Part shown: piece by piece, positions 128-35,219 of the stretch
Numbering within the stretch: the first letter of the stretch is position 1
Layout of the letters: every line of letters starts with the position of its first letter
Source: a virus
DNA length: 35,219 nt
Virus record (IMG/VR): IMGVR_UViG_3300037502_002100
Span: 1-35,219 of that record
Strand: one strand, 5' to 3'
The notes under the pieces: model-generated
What the model saw: only the letters and a program-made list of their open reading frames with translations
Told to the model about the DNA's origin: nothing
The model's database searches: none
Program-made: the position numbers and the translations under genes

Positions 128-1300
128 ACAATTACCAATACAAGTTGAAATAAGCCAAAGCAAAGAACAACCCATAAAGTCAATATTTGAATCTAATTTA
201 TTGTGGCATTCTAAAATGTAGTGTTGTATTTCTTTTGGGAAAATATCCAAAGGAAAAGTAACATTTTCAATAGGTAGTGGTTTATCAATTTTAGGTTTAT
301 TCTCTTCAATTTTTTTCTTTAAACGACTTCCAAAACCTTGGTCGTATAAATCCTTAGTTGCCTCTTTGAAATCCCCGTTGTGGTACTTGTGTGCGTATGC
401 AACGAAAGGACTAATTAACTTTTCATTTGGGTATATTGTACCAGTTGAAAATAAAAACATACATCCACTATCTCTGAAAACATACCCCGAATGGTCGGAA
501 GTTGCTCCGTGTCTTTTTACAAGATAATGTTTGCTTTTTTGTCCGTTACTTGGGATAAAGAAATCATCTTTAATAACACTCCAAATATCAGTTTTATCGT
601 TGAAATCTTGCCACGGTGTAATTTCATCCGTTGCGTATATTTTTGGGTCACGTTTCGGCTCTATTGGTTTTTCATCAATGAAGTTATAAGCTTTTGAAAT
701 CCTCCATAGTGTTTCGCGGTCGGCATCTGTAATAAAGTCAATTTGAAAGTAGGTTAATCCAGCGTATTTGTTTTTAGGATAAATAAAAATATACCCACCA
801 ATACCACGACTTTCAAGAATAGCCTCTTTGTGCCCTTTGAGTTTTGCTATCTTTTCATTACCTACTACTCTTTTTGATTTGTAAAGGATATGAAAACCTC
901 CGCTTGCTGTTGTGTATATCGCAAACTTTTTTTCAAAGTCAATAATGTTATCTTTAAGGGTTTGGTAGTACTCATTCCAAAATTGGTCTTTCTCTATTTG
1001 CGTTGATAAAACTTTTGTATCAACGTCAACGCATTCTAAAAAATCAAAACCCGTAATAATTCCAATTGCAATTGTTTTTGGTAATTCACTACCATCTTTT
1101 TTGATTATACCACCTTGGTAATTTAATCGCTTTAAAAATTCCTCTTTTGCTAGTTTTTCATTTTGGTTTTTACTCCAACTGAAATTTGGTTTTTTACCGC
1201 TTTCAGATTCCCCAACTGTTAAAAGTGAAAACTTTTCTAAAAAGCTAAGTGCTTGTTGTTCATCCATTCTGCATAATGTATTTAAAAAACTAAAGCCCAT
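1..1300 (-). CDS. Primase-polymerase/helicase, N-terminal part (continues at 35092)
   Basis: This is the N-terminal part, about 430 residues, of a 775-residue replication protein that runs through the contig junction. Residues 85-145 carry a PrimPol signature: the acidic pair of the DVD motif at 92-94, then TASGGFHILY at 131-140. The Walker A motif GKAGIGKT (412-419) follows just before the cut. Such proteins make primers and unwind DNA at the fork. The start is uncertain. Met1 (1298-1300) lies inside a 14-bp hairpin, and the frame is open for 17 codons upstream without an ATG. Met12 (1265-1267) is a plausible alternative that leaves the hairpin in the leader. A Bacteroidota-type -7 box lies at 1397-1404. 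Fold assignment is from motifs only; the circular continuity is directly visible. Confidence 0.85.
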   Translation of the reverse strand, partial: MGFSFLNTLCRMDEQQALSFLEKFSLLTVGESESGKKPNFSWSKNQNEKLAKEEFLKRLNYQGGIIKKDGSELPKTIAIGIITGFDFLECVDVDTKVLSTQIEKDQFWNEYYQTLKDNIIDFEKKFAIYTTASGGFHILYKSKRVVGNEKIAKLKGHKEAILESRGIGGYIFIYPKNKYAGLTYFQIDFITDADRETLWRISKAYNFIDEKPIEPKRDPKIYATDEITPWQDFNDKTDIWSVIKDDFFIPSNGQKSKHYLVKRHGATSDHSGYVFRDSGCMFLFSTGTIYPNEKLISPFVAYAHKYHNGDFKEATKDLYDQGFGSRLKKKIEENKPKIDKPLPIENVTFPLDIFPKEIQHYILECHNKLDSNIDFMGCSLLWLISTCIGNCAEVEVKRGWIENGVVWLAVVGKAGIGKTPSINNIIFPLSKLN

Positions 1301-1340
1301 TAATCTTTGGCGATGCAGCGCTTTTGGATTAATAGGCTTT
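1292..1340 (-). promoter_or_regulatory. 14-bp hairpin covering the apparent PrimPol start codon
   Basis: Bases 1292-1305 and 1327-1340 are inverted repeats that pair over 14 positions on the minus-strand RNA, with one U-G pair and a 21-nt loop. The ATG at 1298-1300 lies inside the stem. There is no U-tract, so it is not a terminator. It could block initiation at Met1, mark the leader of a start at Met12, or be a protein or replication site. Confidence 0.6.
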
Positions 1341-1396
1341 AAATAAGTTCCTTGTGACTAATAGTTAACCTTCTGCATTATTAACTTTCACGTGTA

Positions 1397-1404
1397 CAAA
1401 TATA
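1397..1404 (-). promoter_or_regulatory. Bacteroidota-type -7 box upstream of PrimPol
   Basis: The minus strand reads TATATTTG, a perfect TAnnTTTG box, about 97 bases before the PrimPol ATG in the main intergenic region. No clear TTTG -33 element is found at the expected distance, so this is a likely but unproven promoter for PrimPol and the genes beyond it. Confidence 0.45.
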
Positions 1405-1500: not shown

Positions 1501-1702
1501 AGTGTGAACTACTGTGAAATGACTTCACACCTATTTCACACCAAATTTCACACCTATTTTCTTTATTTTATAAGGCTTGTAGCATTTTTTAGTGTGAAGT
1601 TCACACCTAAATTGATTTTAAAAATATTTTTTCATTTTGTTTTTTTATTTTCTTGGTGTGAACTGTGAACTTCACACCAAAATTTCACACCTATTTCACA
1701 CC
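1501..1702. repeat. Iteron-like repeat array, candidate replication origin
   Basis: TTCACACC occurs seven times at 1524, 1535, 1547, 1600, 1671, 1684 and 1695. The inverse form AGTGTGAA or GGTGTGAA occurs at 1501, 1591 and 1655, with partial TGTGAA copies at 1513 and 1664. Neighbouring direct copies are 11-13 bp apart, about one helical turn. Between the two clusters lies a very A+T-rich stretch (about 1608-1650) suited to melting. The array sits upstream of the PrimPol/helicase gene and beyond the end of the ERF transcription unit. Together with 1301-1500 this is the longest non-coding stretch in the genome. Origin function is inferred; the repeats are directly visible. Confidence 0.7.
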
Positions 1703-1709
1703 TAATAAC

Positions 1710-1741
1710 AAAAAAAAGCCTTACATTTCTGCAAGGCTTTT
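1710..1741 (-). terminator. Rho-independent terminator of the ERF transcription unit
   Basis: On the minus strand AAAAGCCTTGCA, loop GAAA, TGTAAGGCTTTT forms a 12-bp stem followed by a run of eight U. It lies 4 bases beyond the stop of the last gene at 1746. Confidence 0.85.
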
Positions 1742-8262: not shown

Positions 8263-8976
8263 TTAAAACAGGGTTAATTGGTCTCCGAAACTTGAAGGAA
8301 TATGAATAATAGGTTGTTGTTCTTCAATTTCTTTTTCAGTTGCATAGGTCAAATATTCCGCACATTCTTGAGTCGTTAAAGGTTTAACCATTAAACCAGT
8401 TTCAGGTAGATAAATTCTCCATCCTTTGTAAAATTCCATTCTTAATGTATCGCAATGAATCACAACGCCTTTCATTCCATACATAACATAATTTATTACT
8501 GACATCAAACAACATCTTTCGTCTAAATCTTGACCTATGTATGTAAATTGAAATCTGTTATTTGGTTGCAATCTTGCGTGTGCAACAAAGTTTCTACTAC
8601 TACCCGTTGAAGGATCATTAACAGTCCCAGATTTTACATCGTTGTGAGTTAAATTTGCAATCAAGTTACAAACACTTTCAGGGGTAAAAAATTGACCAGT
8701 TTGAGCATTTGAAAGTCCTAATTCTTCAAAAATTCTTCCAATACAATCAGTCCAATTTCCCTCTTTTGATTTTGTTTCATAGTCTAAAAACAAAGCACCA
8801 AACGCTTCACCAAATAGCTTTTTTTCTTCATCTGAATATCTTTTAGCTCTTTCTTCGTATCGATATTCGTCACGACCTAAACAAAGCGCAGCAACACTCA
8901 TATTTAAAAAGTCATCAAATACATTGTGTAAATGTTGACTATAAGCTATCTTTTTTAATAGTGGTATTGTATTCAT
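8263..8976 (-). CDS. N-6 DNA methylase-like protein lacking the NPPY motif
   Basis: A 237-residue protein like the core of N6_Mtase (HsdM-type) enzymes. It has GQFFTP (about 93-98), an AdoMet-binding motif I as NDPSTGSSRNFVA where DPACGSG is usual, and GQDLDERC about 30 residues later at the motif II position. No NPPY or NPPF catalytic motif follows; the chain ends in a charged helix and a short tail. The N-terminal 90 residues are helical. With motif I altered (CG to TG) and motif IV missing it may bind AdoMet or DNA without methylating. Short methylase-like proteins without NPPY occur in other phages of this group. The start overlaps the HNH stop as ATGA. Confidence 0.75.
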   Translation of the reverse strand: MNTIPLLKKIAYSQHLHNVFDDFLNMSVAALCLGRDEYRYEERAKRYSDEEKKLFGEAFGALFLDYETKSKEGNWTDCIGRIFEELGLSNAQTGQFFTPESVCNLIANLTHNDVKSGTVNDPSTGSSRNFVAHARLQPNNRFQFTYIGQDLDERCCLMSVINYVMYGMKGVVIHCDTLRMEFYKGWRIYLPETGLMVKPLTTQECAEYLTYATEKEIEEQQPIIHIPSSFGDQLTLF

Positions 8977-9566
8977 AAGCTGTACATTGTTTTATTGATT
9001 TTTGTATCACATTTTATAAATTTTTCCATTGCATAAATATAGCCCTTGATATTTCCAAGCAATGTGAATCTTTTTATTTTGTCAACAACATATAAGTACG
9101 CAATGCCAATCATTTGTTTAATTGATTTTCTTACTTGCTTGAAAATTTCACAGAAACACCTATTAATAACTTCAATATCAAGCGTTAAATAATACTCTTT
9201 TAAAATCGGACAAGTGCATTTTTCAATAGCTTCTTCGCGTGTTGAAGTTTTCTTTTTTCCGTGCCAATTATCATAAGATTTTCTTTTTTCGGCATCTTGT
9301 TTATTGCTTATCCATTTTATGTTTGATGGATGACAATTCAATTTATTACCGTCAATAAATTCAATGAATTTAAAATTGAATCTATTGGGAACAAGGCATC
9401 TTGCCACTAATTTAGCTGCATATCTCTGAACCCTTTTTCCATTTATATAAATGTTATAATAAAGATAGCCGTCTTTATCTTTCAATGGTTTTATCAATTC
9501 TTCGTTTCGATAAAGTAATCCATTTTTACAAAAAAAGTATTCGCTATTTTCCTTTAGTTTTATCAT
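8973..9566 (-). CDS. Degenerate HNH homing endonuclease-like protein
   Basis: A 197-residue protein whose first 110 residues match the phage HNH homing type: YLYYNIYINGKR, KLVARCLVPN, then FIDGNKLNCHPSNIKWIS (about 69-86). In active members the sequence before IDGNK is NH and the His is catalytic; here it is EF, so the key His is missing. The C-terminal 85 residues are hydrophobic and helical and not recognised. The first 23 bases overlap the 47-codon gene upstream, and the stop overlaps the methylase-like start as ATGA. It is probably an inactive or repurposed former mobile nuclease. Confidence 0.7.
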   Translation of the reverse strand: MIKLKENSEYFFCKNGLLYRNEELIKPLKDKDGYLYYNIYINGKRVQRYAAKLVARCLVPNRFNFKFIEFIDGNKLNCHPSNIKWISNKQDAEKRKSYDNWHGKKKTSTREEAIEKCTCPILKEYYLTLDIEVINRCFCEIFKQVRKSIKQMIGIAYLYVVDKIKRFTLLGNIKGYIYAMEKFIKCDTKINKTMYSL

Positions 9567-20858: not shown

Positions 20859-21442
20859 TTTAACATACTTTTTAAGTCTTCAATGACTTGGGTTAAAAAT
20901 TCGTTTTCGGTTTCCTTCATTAGTTCTTCAATTACAAAATCCCCTTCGATTGAAAATCCTGTTAGCTCTCCACTTTTAGCACGTTCGTAAACTTCTTTAT
21001 CTAAAATCTTATAGCTTACTAATAGTGAGCCGTCAGATTCATCTTTAAAACGTTCAGGTGCTGTAAAACCTTTCTCATTATCAATTTGGTAAAGCATAAC
21101 CATAAAGGCATTATTTACCACATCGTTTGATTTGTGTTCAACGTTGAGGTTGTTAAAGTTTCCTTTTCGAGAGTAGTCAACGACAATATCCGAAATAGCT
21201 TGTTTATCGAACACAACATAAAACTCCTCATTACCTTGTTTTCTGTAAATTGGAAAGTCTGCTGAAATTGCAACACCCGTTACTATTTGTTTCTCATCGT
21301 TAAATTCGTATCTTTGGACTTTGGAAAACGTTTGAAAAGATTTCTCGTGTGCAGGATTAGAAACCAAAGAGTTAAAAGACACCGTTGTATTGGGGTTTTC
21401 TAAATCAATGCTAATTCTGTATATAGGTAAATCCTTTCTCAT
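20855..21442 (-). CDS. Prohead protease (XkdF-like, serine-type)
   Basis: A 195-residue protein of the XkdF/Peptidase_S78_2 type. NLNVEHKSND (about 100-109) holds the catalytic His. About 30 residues later come GSLLVSYKILDKEVYERAKS and GELTGFSIEG, where G-S-x-E is the Ser-containing motif. The order His then FS.EG is that of the herpesvirus-fold phage proteases. It would cut scaffold and capsid during head maturation. It is ATGA-coupled to the scaffold gene. The divergent plus-strand gene starts only 28 bases upstream. Confidence 0.82.
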   Translation of the reverse strand: MRKDLPIYRISIDLENPNTTVSFNSLVSNPAHEKSFQTFSKVQRYEFNDEKQIVTGVAISADFPIYRKQGNEEFYVVFDKQAISDIVVDYSRKGNFNNLNVEHKSNDVVNNAFMVMLYQIDNEKGFTAPERFKDESDGSLLVSYKILDKEVYERAKSGELTGFSIEGDFVIEELMKETENEFLTQVIEDLKSMLK

Positions 21443-21470
21443 TGATGCAAATGTTATAAGTATTTTCGAT

Positions 21471-22085
21471 ATGGCAAAAAAAAATATAAATATTTTCTAT
21501 CCGTTTAAAAAAGGAACTGATAAAACAGATTTAAACGCTTCAATTAAATTGATTAAACGTGAATATCCAGACGCAACTATTCACATTGACGACAAAGATT
21601 ATAGCACAATTAGAGGAGTTGACGTTGCACATAAAGTAATCAACTATGCACGTGAAAATAAAGGTCGATTCTTGTATATGAATGATGACTTTTTAGTCGT
21701 TAAACAACCACACAAAGCAATGTATTCAGGGGAATTAAAAGTAAACCCTAAACACCCTATAAGCTATCAAGTAGCAAGTCAGAATACTATTGATTTTCTT
21801 AATAGTTGTGGTAAGCCTTTAAAGAATTTTGAAACACATTCCCCCGTTTGGTTTGATTGTGAAAAGGTTATTGAACTATTTGACCAAATCACTTGGAAAA
21901 ATGACAACTTCTTTATCAAATCATTATACTTGAATTATTATGAATTGATAGGTTTTGAGGGTGCGAACGTAAAAATCCACCAAACAAATGTACCCTTAGC
22001 ACAAAGCCACCTAAAAAAATACGGTTGCGTTTCGTTAGGTGACGGTTTCGATATTAATAGCTTGAAGTCGATTCTTGAACTCTAA
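21471..22085 (+). CDS. Lone plus-strand GT-A/Stealth-like glycosyltransferase candidate
   Basis: A 204-residue protein and the only plus-strand gene. It reads NINIFYPFKKGTDKTDLNAS at the start, then RFLYMNDDFLVVKQ (about 63-76), where NDD is the probable metal- or donor-binding motif, MYSGELK, NFETHSPVWFD and FFIKSLYLNYY. This run of an NDD motif, an HSP motif and a late xIKSLY segment recalls Stealth-type capsular polysaccharide transferases and related phage proteins. It probably transfers a sugar or sugar phosphate, perhaps altering the host surface or virion. It is inserted between tape measure and protease, overlaps the tape-measure end by 32 bases, and has no visible promoter. Confidence 0.6.
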   Translation: MAKKNINIFYPFKKGTDKTDLNASIKLIKREYPDATIHIDDKDYSTIRGVDVAHKVINYARENKGRFLYMNDDFLVVKQPHKAMYSGELKVNPKHPISYQVASQNTIDFLNSCGKPLKNFETHSPVWFDCEKVIELFDQITWKNDNFFIKSLYLNYYELIGFEGANVKIHQTNVPLAQSHLKKYGCVSLGDGFDINSLKSILEL

Positions 22086-30859: not shown

Positions 30860-31897
30860 TTACTTACAATATTTAATATAAAAAGTATAAGGTACAACTT
30901 TCATTTTAGCAAGTACCCACATTAATAATCTGTATTTCTTGAAATCGTATCTTTCAAATTCATTGCGTTCCATTTTAGTTTTAGGAATTGCAATATCTAA
31001 TTTTTGCTTTTCCCAATGGTGTGCAACTTGAAAGATTCGTTTAGCTTCATTTTTAGTTAGCTTTTCGCTTCTAACTTTTGCCGAAAGGTACACAATTCTT
31101 TTATCAATACCAAATTTAGTAGGTAGTAAGTGACCACCAACGAATTCAGTATAAACATTTTCACAGTGCTTACCACCGTAGTCTTGCCACGAAATAAACG
31201 CTTTCATTTCAGCTTCTAGTTCTTCACGTTCTTTTATATAGTGGAACGGTCGAATGTTCTTAATACCTATTAAAGCGTAAAACAATTGGTCTTTGAAAGT
31301 AAATAAAGGATAGTTTGTTAATTCCTTATTTGTATGCCATTTGTAAACCGATTTGATATACTTTGCATCCATATAAGTCCAACCTTTTGGAGTACTTCCC
31401 TCGGTTCTGAAATCGTGACCGTTTAGAATGTATTTGATACCGTATTTGTAAGCCGTATCGTACATTAACTTAGTCATTGCAATATCATTTGGAATATCGG
31501 CGTCAGGCAATCCAGCTTGAATAAAAGCATCGTTAAGCGTGTCGTATTCCAACTTGTTCACGTTGTAAGTTATCGCATCGACATTTAGCAACTTGATTAG
31601 TTGGCTCATATTGTGCGTAGCTTGTGGCACGTTGTAATGATTGTCAAAGTGAATAACTAAGGGTTTTAAATTCCACTTTTTAACAGCAAGGTAAAGCAAT
31701 AAAGAACTATCAACACCACCGCTAATTCCCATTATACAATCATACTTTTTATTGTTTCGTACCTTATCAAGTAACGGCATCAAATCGCTTGGGTTTGCTT
31801 GTGCTTCTAACTGGTCGTGCAAATCGCAATATTCACATTGAGTATCTCCGATAGTAGCAATCGACTCATCAAATAAACATCTTGGGCATTCTTTCAT
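30860..31897 (-). CDS. PP-loop N-acetyl-sugar amidotransferase-like enzyme
   Basis: A 345-residue protein of the family that includes WbpG and WbuX, which convert an acetamido sugar to an acetamidino sugar in surface polysaccharides. A zinc-like start (CPRCLFDES, CEYCDLH) is followed by YDCIMGISGGVDSSLLLYL (about 53-71), the PP-loop ATP pyrophosphatase motif, then LKPLVIHFDNHYN, DIPNDIAMTKLMYDTA, YILNGHDFRTEGSTPKGWTY and a long helical end. These line up in order with the amidotransferase family. The enzyme needs ammonia from a partner glutaminase, and none is encoded here, so the host may supply it. It shares an ATGA overlap with the glycosyltransferase gene. Confidence 0.75.
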   Translation of the reverse strand: MKECPRCLFDESIATIGDTQCEYCDLHDQLEAQANPSDLMPLLDKVRNNKKYDCIMGISGGVDSSLLLYLAVKKWNLKPLVIHFDNHYNVPQATHNMSQLIKLLNVDAITYNVNKLEYDTLNDAFIQAGLPDADIPNDIAMTKLMYDTAYKYGIKYILNGHDFRTEGSTPKGWTYMDAKYIKSVYKWHTNKELTNYPLFTFKDQLFYALIGIKNIRPFHYIKEREELEAEMKAFISWQDYGGKHCENVYTEFVGGHLLPTKFGIDKRIVYLSAKVRSEKLTKNEAKRIFQVAHHWEKQKLDIAIPKTKMERNEFERYDFKKYRLLMWVLAKMKVVPYTFYIKYCK

Positions 31898-32571
31898 ATT
31901 CTATTTATTTCTCCAAAATTAGTTAATAATTTCAAATCACATTTAACACTTTTTAATTTTCCGTTCCAATGGTCTTCAAACTTATGTTTATTTCCCCACT
32001 TGTTAGTTGAAATCGAAAGACATTGAATCGCTTTTGTGTTTGGTAACAATCCAACGTTTTCAGCTTTCAGATACATTGACCAATCTAAACCAGCGTTTAA
32101 ATGATTATCAAACGGCATAAAGTTAATACGCTTTAAAAAGTCAATCGATAAAACTCTACCTATTCCTATTGGCTCGTTGTGACGGCTACCTTGTGGATAA
32201 CCTTGCCAAAATACCAAACGTTTACTTTCTGCAACATCGACAAAGTGACATCCTGCAACTCCGATAATGTCGTATTTGTTTAAATGTTTTTTACATAACT
32301 TCAAATAAGAATCTGAAATCCAATCACTCGAACCAACAAATAAAACGCTTTCACAATCTGACTTATTGCACGCTTTAAATCCAGCGTTCCACTTAGAACC
32401 TAACGGAGTGTTTGCGTGTTCAATATACTGAACATCTAAGTCTTTACAGATTTGTCTTGCTTGTGGTTCGTTACCGATTCCTATTGGTGTAACGCCTTGT
32501 TTGATTAATCGTTCCATTGTTAGCTTAATTAACGAGAAACGACCGTAAATTGGAATAGGTGCGTAAATCAT
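31894..32571 (-). CDS. GT-A-type glycosyltransferase-like protein
   Basis: A 225-residue protein. It starts YAPIPIYGRFSLIKLTMERL, the first beta-alpha unit of a nucleotide-sugar fold, followed by EHANTPLGSKWNAGF and LFVGSSDWISDSYL, where the SSD is at the place of the DxD metal site of family 2 enzymes. Later RLVFWQGYPQGSRHNEPIGI and FDNHLNAGLDWSMYLKAE complete the fold. It probably transfers a sugar to a surface, virion or nucleic-acid acceptor. It is ATGA-coupled to the amidotransferase gene, so the two likely act on the same product. Confidence 0.65.
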   Translation of the reverse strand: MIYAPIPIYGRFSLIKLTMERLIKQGVTPIGIGNEPQARQICKDLDVQYIEHANTPLGSKWNAGFKACNKSDCESVLFVGSSDWISDSYLKLCKKHLNKYDIIGVAGCHFVDVAESKRLVFWQGYPQGSRHNEPIGIGRVLSIDFLKRINFMPFDNHLNAGLDWSMYLKAENVGLLPNTKAIQCLSISTNKWGNKHKFEDHWNGKLKSVKCDLKLLTNFGEINRI

Positions 32572-33821: not shown

Positions 33822-34068
33822 TGTTGATAGGTTTAGATTTGTATAAATATTCAACTCCTATTTCATTTTCATCTTTCCAAAAAATACTTAATAAAATTTG
33901 AAAAGTAGGGTGTGGATTTTCTTTCATAAATTCTACAATCAATGTTCCTTTATGGTCATTTATACTACAAATTTCATCATCAAATTTATGATTACATATT
34001 CTTTGAGCAATTCTACTTAATCGTTCTGTTCTCCAAAACTCATTATAACTTGGCATTTCTATTCTCAT
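33811..34068 (-). CDS. Hypothetical protein downstream of PrimPol
   Basis: An 85-residue protein with helical start (MRIEMPSYNEFWRTERLSRI), then a DHKGTLIVEFMKENPHPTFQ stretch and IFWKDENEIGVEYLY, as in small alpha/beta folds. Its start overlaps the PrimPol stop as ATGA, so it would be made along with it. Function unknown. Confidence 0.75.
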   Translation of the reverse strand: MRIEMPSYNEFWRTERLSRIAQRICNHKFDDEICSINDHKGTLIVEFMKENPHPTFQILLSIFWKDENEIGVEYLYKSKPINNDL

Positions 34069-35219
34069 TTTTCCTCTATTTTTTTAATTAAATTTATTAT
34101 TTGTCTTCTTGAAACTCCTAATAATTCAGCAACTTTTGTTCTATTAAAATCATTATCCGCTTTGTAAATAGCTTGTAATTTATCAAATGTTGTTTCTGCT
34201 CCCTTGGATGCCGTTTTCAAGTCTTTTATTTCAGTAGCTTCAATCTTTATTTTCTTGGCATTCATTACAAAGTAGTTACTTAACTTTTCAGCTTTAAGCA
34301 TTGATTCTTTGTTAATCCAAAGGTAGTTAACGTTTTCGTCAAAGTTACTTTCAAAGAAGTGAATAAGTAGTGCAAACCTTGGTATGTAGCTTTTCTGCTT
34401 TGGGAACATTGACTTTAAATATTCGTTTTCCTCTTCGCTGTTTTGTTCTTTGGTTATTCTGTTAAATATTCTTTTCCATTCAGTTTTAGCACCATCGTCA
34501 AAGCGAACTCGCATCGGTTCAATGTCGTTGTCATTATTACGCTTAATTAGTTTCTGTTTAATACCTTGGTAAAACCTTACAATAGTATCTGAATACCACT
34601 GCAATACTGAATAATCAACTTCGTTTTCGTTGTATTCATCAACCTTAGCATCAGGAAAACTCAAAAGCATACGGTCTAAAAATCCATTGTCTTTATTTTC
34701 ATCAGTTGCAAAAGTGTTAAAGATACTTGGTTGAATACCACCCAAAACAGGTATAAATGGTTTTTCAATAAATGAACCAGCACGAGTAATTCTATTCAAG
34801 TAAACCGATTTACCACTCCAACAACTAAGCCAAAATTCCAAATCAGACCCACTTCTATATTTATTCATATCTTTAAACCATCCAGCAAGTTCGTCTTTGA
34901 ATACTCCAACTGAATTGTCATTTTCTTGGTGTAAATCAACCAAAGCTTCTAATGTAATATCATTAACTAAAAATTGTGATTTTTTTGGTGGTGGTGGTAA
35001 TTCCAAACCTAAATCTGCTCTTTCTTTTTTATTCAATGAATCAATATAATCATACCTTTCTTTTGCTTCTCTATACTTTTTAATCTCATTATAATTCAAT
35101 TTACTCAAAGGAAAAATAATATTGTTAATACTTGGTGTCTTACCTATTCCAGCCTTACCGACAACCGCCAACCAAACAACACCATTTTCAATCCATCCTC
35201 TTTTAACTTCAACCTCAGC
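34065..35219 (-). CDS. Primase-polymerase/helicase, DUF3987 part (continues at 1)
   Basis: This is the C-terminal part of the 775-residue protein that begins at 1300. It starts at the contig end just before the Walker A motif GKAGIGKT and continues with the DUF3987 ATPase: LEALVDLHQENDNSVGVFKD and ELAGWFKDM (Walker B-like, conserved in DUF3987), PFIPVLGGIQPSIFN (sensor region) and a helix-rich end with a probable helix-turn-helix (KVAELLGVSRRQIINLIKKI). DUF3987 with PrimPol is a known phage and plasmid replicase plan. The last 127 bases repeat the first 127, so count them once. Stop overlaps the next start as ATGA. Confidence 0.88.
   Translation of the reverse strand, partial: AEVEVKRGWIENGVVWLAVVGKAGIGKTPSINNIIFPLSKLNYNEIKKYREAKERYDYIDSLNKKERADLGLELPPPPKKSQFLVNDITLEALVDLHQENDNSVGVFKDELAGWFKDMNKYRSGSDLEFWLSCWSGKSVYLNRITRAGSFIEKPFIPVLGGIQPSIFNTFATDENKDNGFLDRMLLSFPDAKVDEYNENEVDYSVLQWYSDTIVRFYQGIKQKLIKRNNDNDIEPMRVRFDDGAKTEWKRIFNRITKEQNSEEENEYLKSMFPKQKSYIPRFALLIHFFESNFDENVNYLWINKESMLKAEKLSNYFVMNAKKIKIEATEIKDLKTASKGAETTFDKLQAIYKADNDFNRTKVAELLGVSRRQIINLIKKIEEK
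35093..35219. repeat. Terminal direct repeat, copy 2 (assembly overlap of a circular genome)
   Basis: Identical to bases 1-127. Removing one copy gives a 35,092-bp circle in which the PrimPol/helicase frame continues without interruption: 1028 bases (34065-35092) plus 1300 bases (1-1300) make exactly 776 codons. Confidence 0.95.

Follow-up and report, generated by a model that had tools for sequence, protein, structure and literature searches.

What is the function of the short repeats in the largest intergenic gap of this viral genome, and which protein would read them? The window, meaning the whole stretch of DNA analysed, is IMG/VR virus record IMGVR_UViG_3300037502_002100 with its 35,219 bases, and since these end in a direct terminal repeat of 127 bp the map is circular, at ~35,092 bp. 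On this map a gene for a PrimPol-DUF3987 protein spans the record ends, with the repeats upstream of it. A preliminary description had seen an iteron-like array and a candidate replication origin here, but no initiator with a known iteron-binding domain. From the comparisons below we consider it very probable that the array is the replication origin of the phage and that PrimPol-DUF3987 is its initiator; contrary to that description, PrimPol itself ends in an HTH that co-varies with the repeat.

Repeat clusters around an A+T-rich segment

The gap at 1268–1745 is indeed the largest between open reading frames of the window, as the placement of the array in the largest intergenic region, upstream of the primase/helicase, had implied. 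The next gene (1746) bounds this gap, and an intrinsic terminator of the upstream gene (1708–1741, minus strand) stops transcription before the array. The array (1501–1702) holds 12 TGTGAA cores within 1503–1700 (198 bp): seven direct copies of TTCACACC, one exact and two near-exact inverse copies, and two shorter ones. Along the PrimPol strand the order of the cores is >>><<, an A+T-rich segment, a central ><, and then >>><<. Specifically, the distal cluster (1655–1702, minus strand) has direct copies at 1695–1702, 1684–1691 and 1671–1678 and inverse cores at 1664–1669 and 1657–1662. It is followed by the A+T-rich segment (1608–1654), a candidate unwinding element whose best 40-mer is 93% A+T, by a central palindromic pair AGTGTGAA-G-TTCACACC (1591–1607), and by a spacer GCTACAAGCCTTATAAAATAAAG of the CTTATAAACATTGA type (1556–1590, minus strand) that is kept in relatives whatever their repeat motif. 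The proximal cluster (1501–1554, minus strand) has direct copies at 1547–1554, 1535–1542 and 1524–1531 and inverse cores at 1513–1518 and 1503–1508.

Exact copies of TTCACACC start on the plus strand at 1524, 1535, 1547, 1600, 1671, 1684 and 1695 (n = 7) and occur once on the minus strand, at 1655–1662, while TTCACACT, an inverse copy that is one base off, lies at 1501–1508 and 1591–1598. The original count of seven direct and three inverse copies is thus correct for the direct ones, but only one of the inverse copies is exact, the other two being near-exact. The direct copies are spaced by 11 and 12, then by 13 and 11, matching the 11–13 bp given before, and the A+T-rich 40-mer has five copies on one flank and seven on the other, so the picture of two clusters around an A+T-rich stretch also stands.

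Short repeats arise readily in A+T-rich intergenic sequence, and the array might in principle be a chance or assembly repeat without function. The window contains nine exact copies of TTCACACC, eight of them within 1524–1702; shuffled sequences are expected to give 1.05 over the whole window (sd 1.06, largest 4), and none of 100 shuffles reaches the observed count. A 6-mer cluster of this kind is found in no other 250-bp stretch of the window, the runner-up holding six copies, which bears out the earlier statement that such repeats occur nowhere else in it. Furthermore, position and layout are conserved across over 120 distinct loci even though the letters differ. A functionless repeat is already refuted by this conservation in relatives, and we give it a practically negligible probability.

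The cumulative GC skew, suggested earlier as a check on the origin, falls steadily over the window with no extremum. It is uninformative here because nearly all genes are co-oriented on the minus strand.

Two further elements accompany the array. Elements of the CTTATAAACATTGA type are found in or beside arrays with different motifs, for example in L062, L063, L134 and L148, sometimes as two inverted copies. Between array and promoter (1408–1500) lie ~70–90 bp with a strong hairpin (AAAGCACTC..GAGTGCTTT), common to the window and L017 (PrimPol ~75% identical) and absent from L002 (95% identical); judged by this distribution, the segment is a movable or recombined one.

Arrays beside PrimPol in related phages

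The first relatives were 42 viral loci found by a search with the N-terminal half of PrimPol. With three further viral scans and one scan of genome contigs, which contributed only three, the total rose to 241 loci. For the analysis we kept 133 distinct PrimPols whose C-terminus is complete and which have 300 bp or more of upstream sequence. Arrays were called without bias, using 64 TGNNAN 6-mers plus GTTTAA in 300-bp windows.

When the TTCACACC of the window was searched upstream of PrimPol in the first 42 relatives, only the closest one, L002, matched. The array looked absent with the window motif because the motif switches: the layout is the same but the letters differ, with GGTGTAAC in L003, GTGTTAC in L014 and GTGTAAAG in L004 and L017. 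The motif classes among the relatives include TGTGAA, TGTGAC, TGTAAC, TGTAAA, TGCGAA, TGCGAC, GTTTAA and others. Within one phage the repeats agree, whereas between neighbouring phages they differ, as is expected if one cognate protein reads all the repeats of a phage.

An array adjoins PrimPol in 122 of the 133 distinct relatives, upstream in 68 and downstream in 54, and this retention of the layout next to the gene supports the original proposal of a candidate origin. It also answers the question, raised at the outset, of whether related phages might have the same replication gene but lack such repeats: they have the same gene and the same layout of repeats, with a different motif. In an upstream-only search 75 of the 133 loci had seemed to be without an array, and the downstream search then found most of them. 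The downstream arrays lie 3–47 bp past the PrimPol stop codon, nearly all beginning within 3–30 bp. Along the PrimPol tree there are five switches of the array from one side to the other, and because it occurs on both sides it belongs to the PrimPol gene and not to the promoter.

These positions also bear on whether the array, instead of being an origin, might be an operator at which PrimPol binds by the same HTH to repress its own promoter. The array is upstream of PrimPol in the window and in 67 further distinct loci, in many of which, as in the window, it stands just before the PrimPol promoter. However, 54 loci have an array of the same layout just downstream, away from that promoter, and an operator would hardly need twelve sites round an A+T-rich core. 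Moreover, an origin can at the same time serve in autoregulation, as in iteron plasmids. We therefore hold an operator role in place of an origin to be improbable, though in the upstream cases the same sites could regulate the PrimPol promoter in addition to serving as the origin.

The layout is also quantitatively regular. Among 67 cluster representatives the array has a median of 12 copies over 244 bp, and in 64 of the 67 two or more copies lie on each side of an A+T-rich 40-mer. A median of 12, twice six, would fit two hexamers, but is only suggestive because the copy numbers span 5 to 16.

Several of the 11 uncalled loci have another motif (TGCGCA in L067, L093 and L095, GTTCAA in L080, TGCACA in L090, GTACAA in L130), while the array of L025 is partial and those of L092 and L097 are weak. 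In L005, possibly a chimeric contig, neither the 493 bp upstream nor the 500 bp downstream contain an array, though its HTH is intact (SRQQVIN). The 'TGCAAC' upstream calls in L031, L033 and L036 were dropped since they fall in coding sequence, the real arrays being downstream. The palindrome-like motifs of L060 and L144 are both TGTGAC on inspection, and the tests use that orientation.

At the arrays of the cluster representatives, matches to the IHF consensus and DnaA boxes are only sporadic; perfect DnaA boxes, TTATCCACA, occur just past the array in representatives L228 and L235 only. Separately, the gene before the array in L004, L006, L008, L022 and L028 resembles DnaA domain IV by eye (IGRMLDKDHVTVMHGLK).

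Recognition helix and repeat motif

The N-terminal part of PrimPol-DUF3987 is encoded at 1–1267 on the minus strand, with a probable start at ATG 1267, and the remainder at 34065–35092 on the same strand, with the stop at 34065; residues are numbered from the longest ORF (start 1300, 775 aa). The AEP primase domain has a PHROG DNA polymerase/primase match (4.6e-21), with Pfam Prim-Pol below cut-off, and its modelled fold is like those of pRN1 ORF904 and NrS-1 PrimPol. After it comes the DUF3987 ATPase domain (PF13148, E 2e-53), an MCM-like AAA+ domain in the model. Among cultured phages there is no close relative of this PrimPol, the best being ~31% identical over half of the protein, and a PDB sequence search with the PrimPol profile gave no match.

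The C-terminal HTH (residues 735–774; 34071–34190, minus strand) is assigned from Pfam matches to HTH_23, HTH_8 and HTH_11, all below cut-off (HTH_23 and HTH_8 just under), from an AlphaFold2 model and from co-variation. In the model of L002, helices at 735–745, 751–758 and 762–774 form a three-helix HTH. The mean pLDDT is 80.7, and the domain arrangement is distrusted because the pTM is 0.53. Since a wing is not seen, we class the domain as HTH and not as winged helix. The recognition helix, residues 762–774 (34071–34109, minus strand), includes Arg763 (codon 34104–34106) and Asn767 (codon 34092–34094).

The start of this helix, residues 762–767, varies together with the repeat motif, which is most easily seen in close pairs. 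Between L015 and L017, 9 of 757 residues are different; five of these, 763, 766 and 767 (window numbering) among them, fall within the last 13, and the arrays read TGTTAC and TGTAAA respectively. The PrimPols of the window and L003 are ~91% identical and in their last 17 residues differ only at 763, 766 and 767, with arrays of TGTGAA and TGTAAC. The close kin L062, L063 and L064 combine TGTGAA with RHIIN, TGTGAC with RQVIR, and TGTAAC with QQVIR.

The same association holds over the family. Among 28 cluster representatives (23 TG-type), Arg763 occurs in 12 of 12 arrays with G at position 4 (G4) and in none of 11 others, and Arg767 in 7 of 7 arrays with C at position 6 (C6) and in none of 15 with A (A6); no other column, out of ~750, comes near these two. 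For 57 TG-type representatives and 735 columns, residue 763 ranks top for motif position 4 and residue 767 for position 6, with an excess information for best vs next column of 0.59 vs 0.25 (763) and 0.53 vs 0.24 (767). The code was fixed on upstream arrays before being applied to other loci. In the loci outside the rule-making set, which mostly have downstream arrays, R767 is present in 20 of 24 C6 arrays and lacking in 32 of 35 A6 arrays, and R763 is found in only 1 of 53 non-G4 arrays (with L060 and L144 read as TGTGAC).

To account for shared ancestry we used a PrimPol tree built without the last 45 residues, a quick tree whose branch support is SH-aLRT alone; in these tests the orientation of some motifs was set by rule. 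The motif changes 12 times on the tree at position 4 and 17 times at position 6. Tree-independent pairs give 10.9 same and 0 opposite changes for position 6 and residue 767 (p ~0.001), and 8–9 same and 0–1 opposite for position 4 and residue 763 (p 0.008–0.02), whereas the crossed controls, in which 763 and 767 are swapped between positions, give p values of 1 and 0.63. The array, its layout, its conservation beside the gene and the co-variation of residues with bases are all direct results of these computations.

The phage encodes other small proteins, and one of these or a host protein (a repressor, or a partition or packaging protein) could conceivably bind the array, its link to PrimPol being accidental. 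But two residues of the PrimPol recognition helix rank first among 735 columns for two separate motif positions, tree-controlled switching agrees with the PrimPol code, and the array moves along with the PrimPol gene. We judge such an accidental link to be very improbable, and return to PrimPol as the reader of the repeats.

Arg commonly contacts G, and Asn commonly contacts A. Arg767 in combination with C6 would then read the G of the opposite strand. Recognition of the repeats by the PrimPol HTH appears to follow a code that is largely readable from sequence. The exceptions are L121, L122 and L127 (R767 with A6), L235 (R763 with A4), L114, L108, L153 and L167, and K763 replaces R in L228 and L234. 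No residue of the recognition helix clearly pairs with motif position 3. For position 2, a link between SR to SL and TG to TT correlates, but was rejected as clade-confounded. L080 has an SL-class HTH with Arg763 and the array GTTCAA, not GTTTAA, where Arg763 once more accompanies an extra G:C pair, viewed from the opposite strand.

The outcome is a code that links amino acids to bases at two positions for an initiator of replication. Natural near-swaps (9 of 757 differences with a switched array) make specificity changes directly testable.

Proposed initiation, known systems and the leader RNA

From the co-variation and the layout we infer physical binding, ring loading, melting and firing as follows. 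The C-terminal HTH of each subunit would read one TGTGAA core, in the window with Arg763 reading G at position 4 and Asn767 reading A at position 6. At the two inverted clusters (5+5 sites) and the central pair (2 sites), two helicase rings would be loaded either side of the A+T-rich segment, which would melt. The MCM-like DUF3987 motor would unwind, the PrimPol domain would prime and a host polymerase would then extend. On this account, the simplest one, PrimPol-DUF3987 would be initiator, helicase and primase in one protein.

This proposal has several counterparts. SaPI/PICI Rep (Pri-Rep) is a helicase initiator whose C-terminal DNA-binding domain reads short origin iterons beside its gene (PMC7581432, PMC6092414), and in PICI origins an A+T-rich region invariably lies between two sets of iterons, an arrangement described as found only in PICIs (PMC6092414). 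The window too has two repeat sets around an A+T-rich region beside the initiator gene, but the phage has its own large and small terminase subunits and portal, so it is not a satellite. A layout described as satellite-specific therefore occurs in phages with their own packaging genes. The window furthermore has a primase plus MCM-like DUF3987 where SaPIs have SaPI helicases, and in PrimPol-DUF3987 phages the array may be upstream or downstream; the two are likened here by function and layout.

The C-terminal part of the P4 alpha protein binds the origin. This protein of satellite phage P4 also unites a primase with a helicase and has a cognate ori at which it works (PMC6092414, PMC7145576), which likens it to PrimPol-DUF3987, although the helicase type is expected to differ. 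In SCCmec, the isolated C-terminal domain of the initiator helicase Cch2 binds iteron-like repeats downstream of the operon (PMC7581432). Here the likeness is in the C-terminal domain of an initiator helicase and repeats near its genes, while the Cch2 helicase is of D5/Primase_Cterm type, the primase is separate and there are only three repeats. Iteron plasmid origins (RK2/P1/pSC101) likewise have direct repeats by an A+T-rich unwinding element and a rep gene, but the repeats of the window are short, in mixed orientation and on both sides. To our knowledge the Rep proteins of such plasmids are without primase and helicase domains.

A counterpart in domain architecture is the PrimPol-PV1 supergroup (PrimQH and all3500 families), in which an AEP primase is likewise fused to DUF3987. 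For PrimQH-family primase fusions, DUF3987 members included, the C-terminal domain has been suggested to recognise origins (PMC5862659); that suggestion came without origins, whereas here origins, domain and residue–base code are given, turning a published guess into a tested prediction. Our search, mostly outside subscription journals, found no paper on iterons of DUF3987 phages, an absence that is weak evidence. If the proposal is correct, an initiator and an origin are assigned to a large family of uncultured phages.

Downstream of the array in the window, the −7 box of the PrimPol promoter, TATATTTG (1397–1404, minus strand), is conserved in relatives; we take it to be of the TAnnTTTG promoter type. 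Between this promoter and PrimPol is a leader RNA of ~100 nt (1292–1386, minus strand) with two hairpins, hairpin 1 at 1363–1386 and a terminator-like hairpin 2 at 1340–1292. The loop of hairpin 1, AUGCAG (1378–1373), is complementary to the apical loop of hairpin 2, CUGCAU (1318–1313). By itself this 6-bp pair falls short of significance (p 0.125), the support coming from the family: the kissing-loop leader is conserved in the leaders of 90 relatives, loop complementarity is above shuffles at p 0.05 in 57 of 74 distinct leaders (~4 expected), at least 36 different complementary loop sequences occur, and mean pair scores are 18.1 for own pairs vs 11.8 with the loops of other phages. Rfam gave no leader match above the gathering score, only weak chance hits. 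Kissing-loop control of PrimPol expression is thus likely. Because the leader is present with either upstream or downstream arrays, it is separate from the origin.

Origin and leader might still act as one incompatibility module, in which the HTH–iteron code would set origin sharing and the terminated leader RNA of one phage would affect, in trans, leaders that share its loop type. We consider this idea rather unlikely, but if true it would let RNA control copy number or exclude superinfecting phages, much as plasmids control their replication or P4 confers immunity through RNA.

The phage host is presumed to belong to the Bacteroidota, from the promoter type and the genome relatives (two titled Psychroflexus, Bacteroidetes). 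Almost all genes of the window are on the minus strand. The genes present encode, among others, an ERF recombinase and a DUF3127 single-strand binding protein. The sole long plus-strand ORF (21390–22085) lies within the structural genes and has no Pfam match. A PP-loop ATPase (30860–31897, minus strand; Pfam NAD_synthase/ATP_bind_3) resembles a sugar amidotransferase and neighbours a glycosyltransferase-like ORF (31894–32571, minus strand), and the two are possible phage-carried genes for surface-sugar modification. At 8263–9566 (minus strand) an N6 DNA methylase adjoins an HNH_3-like ORF.
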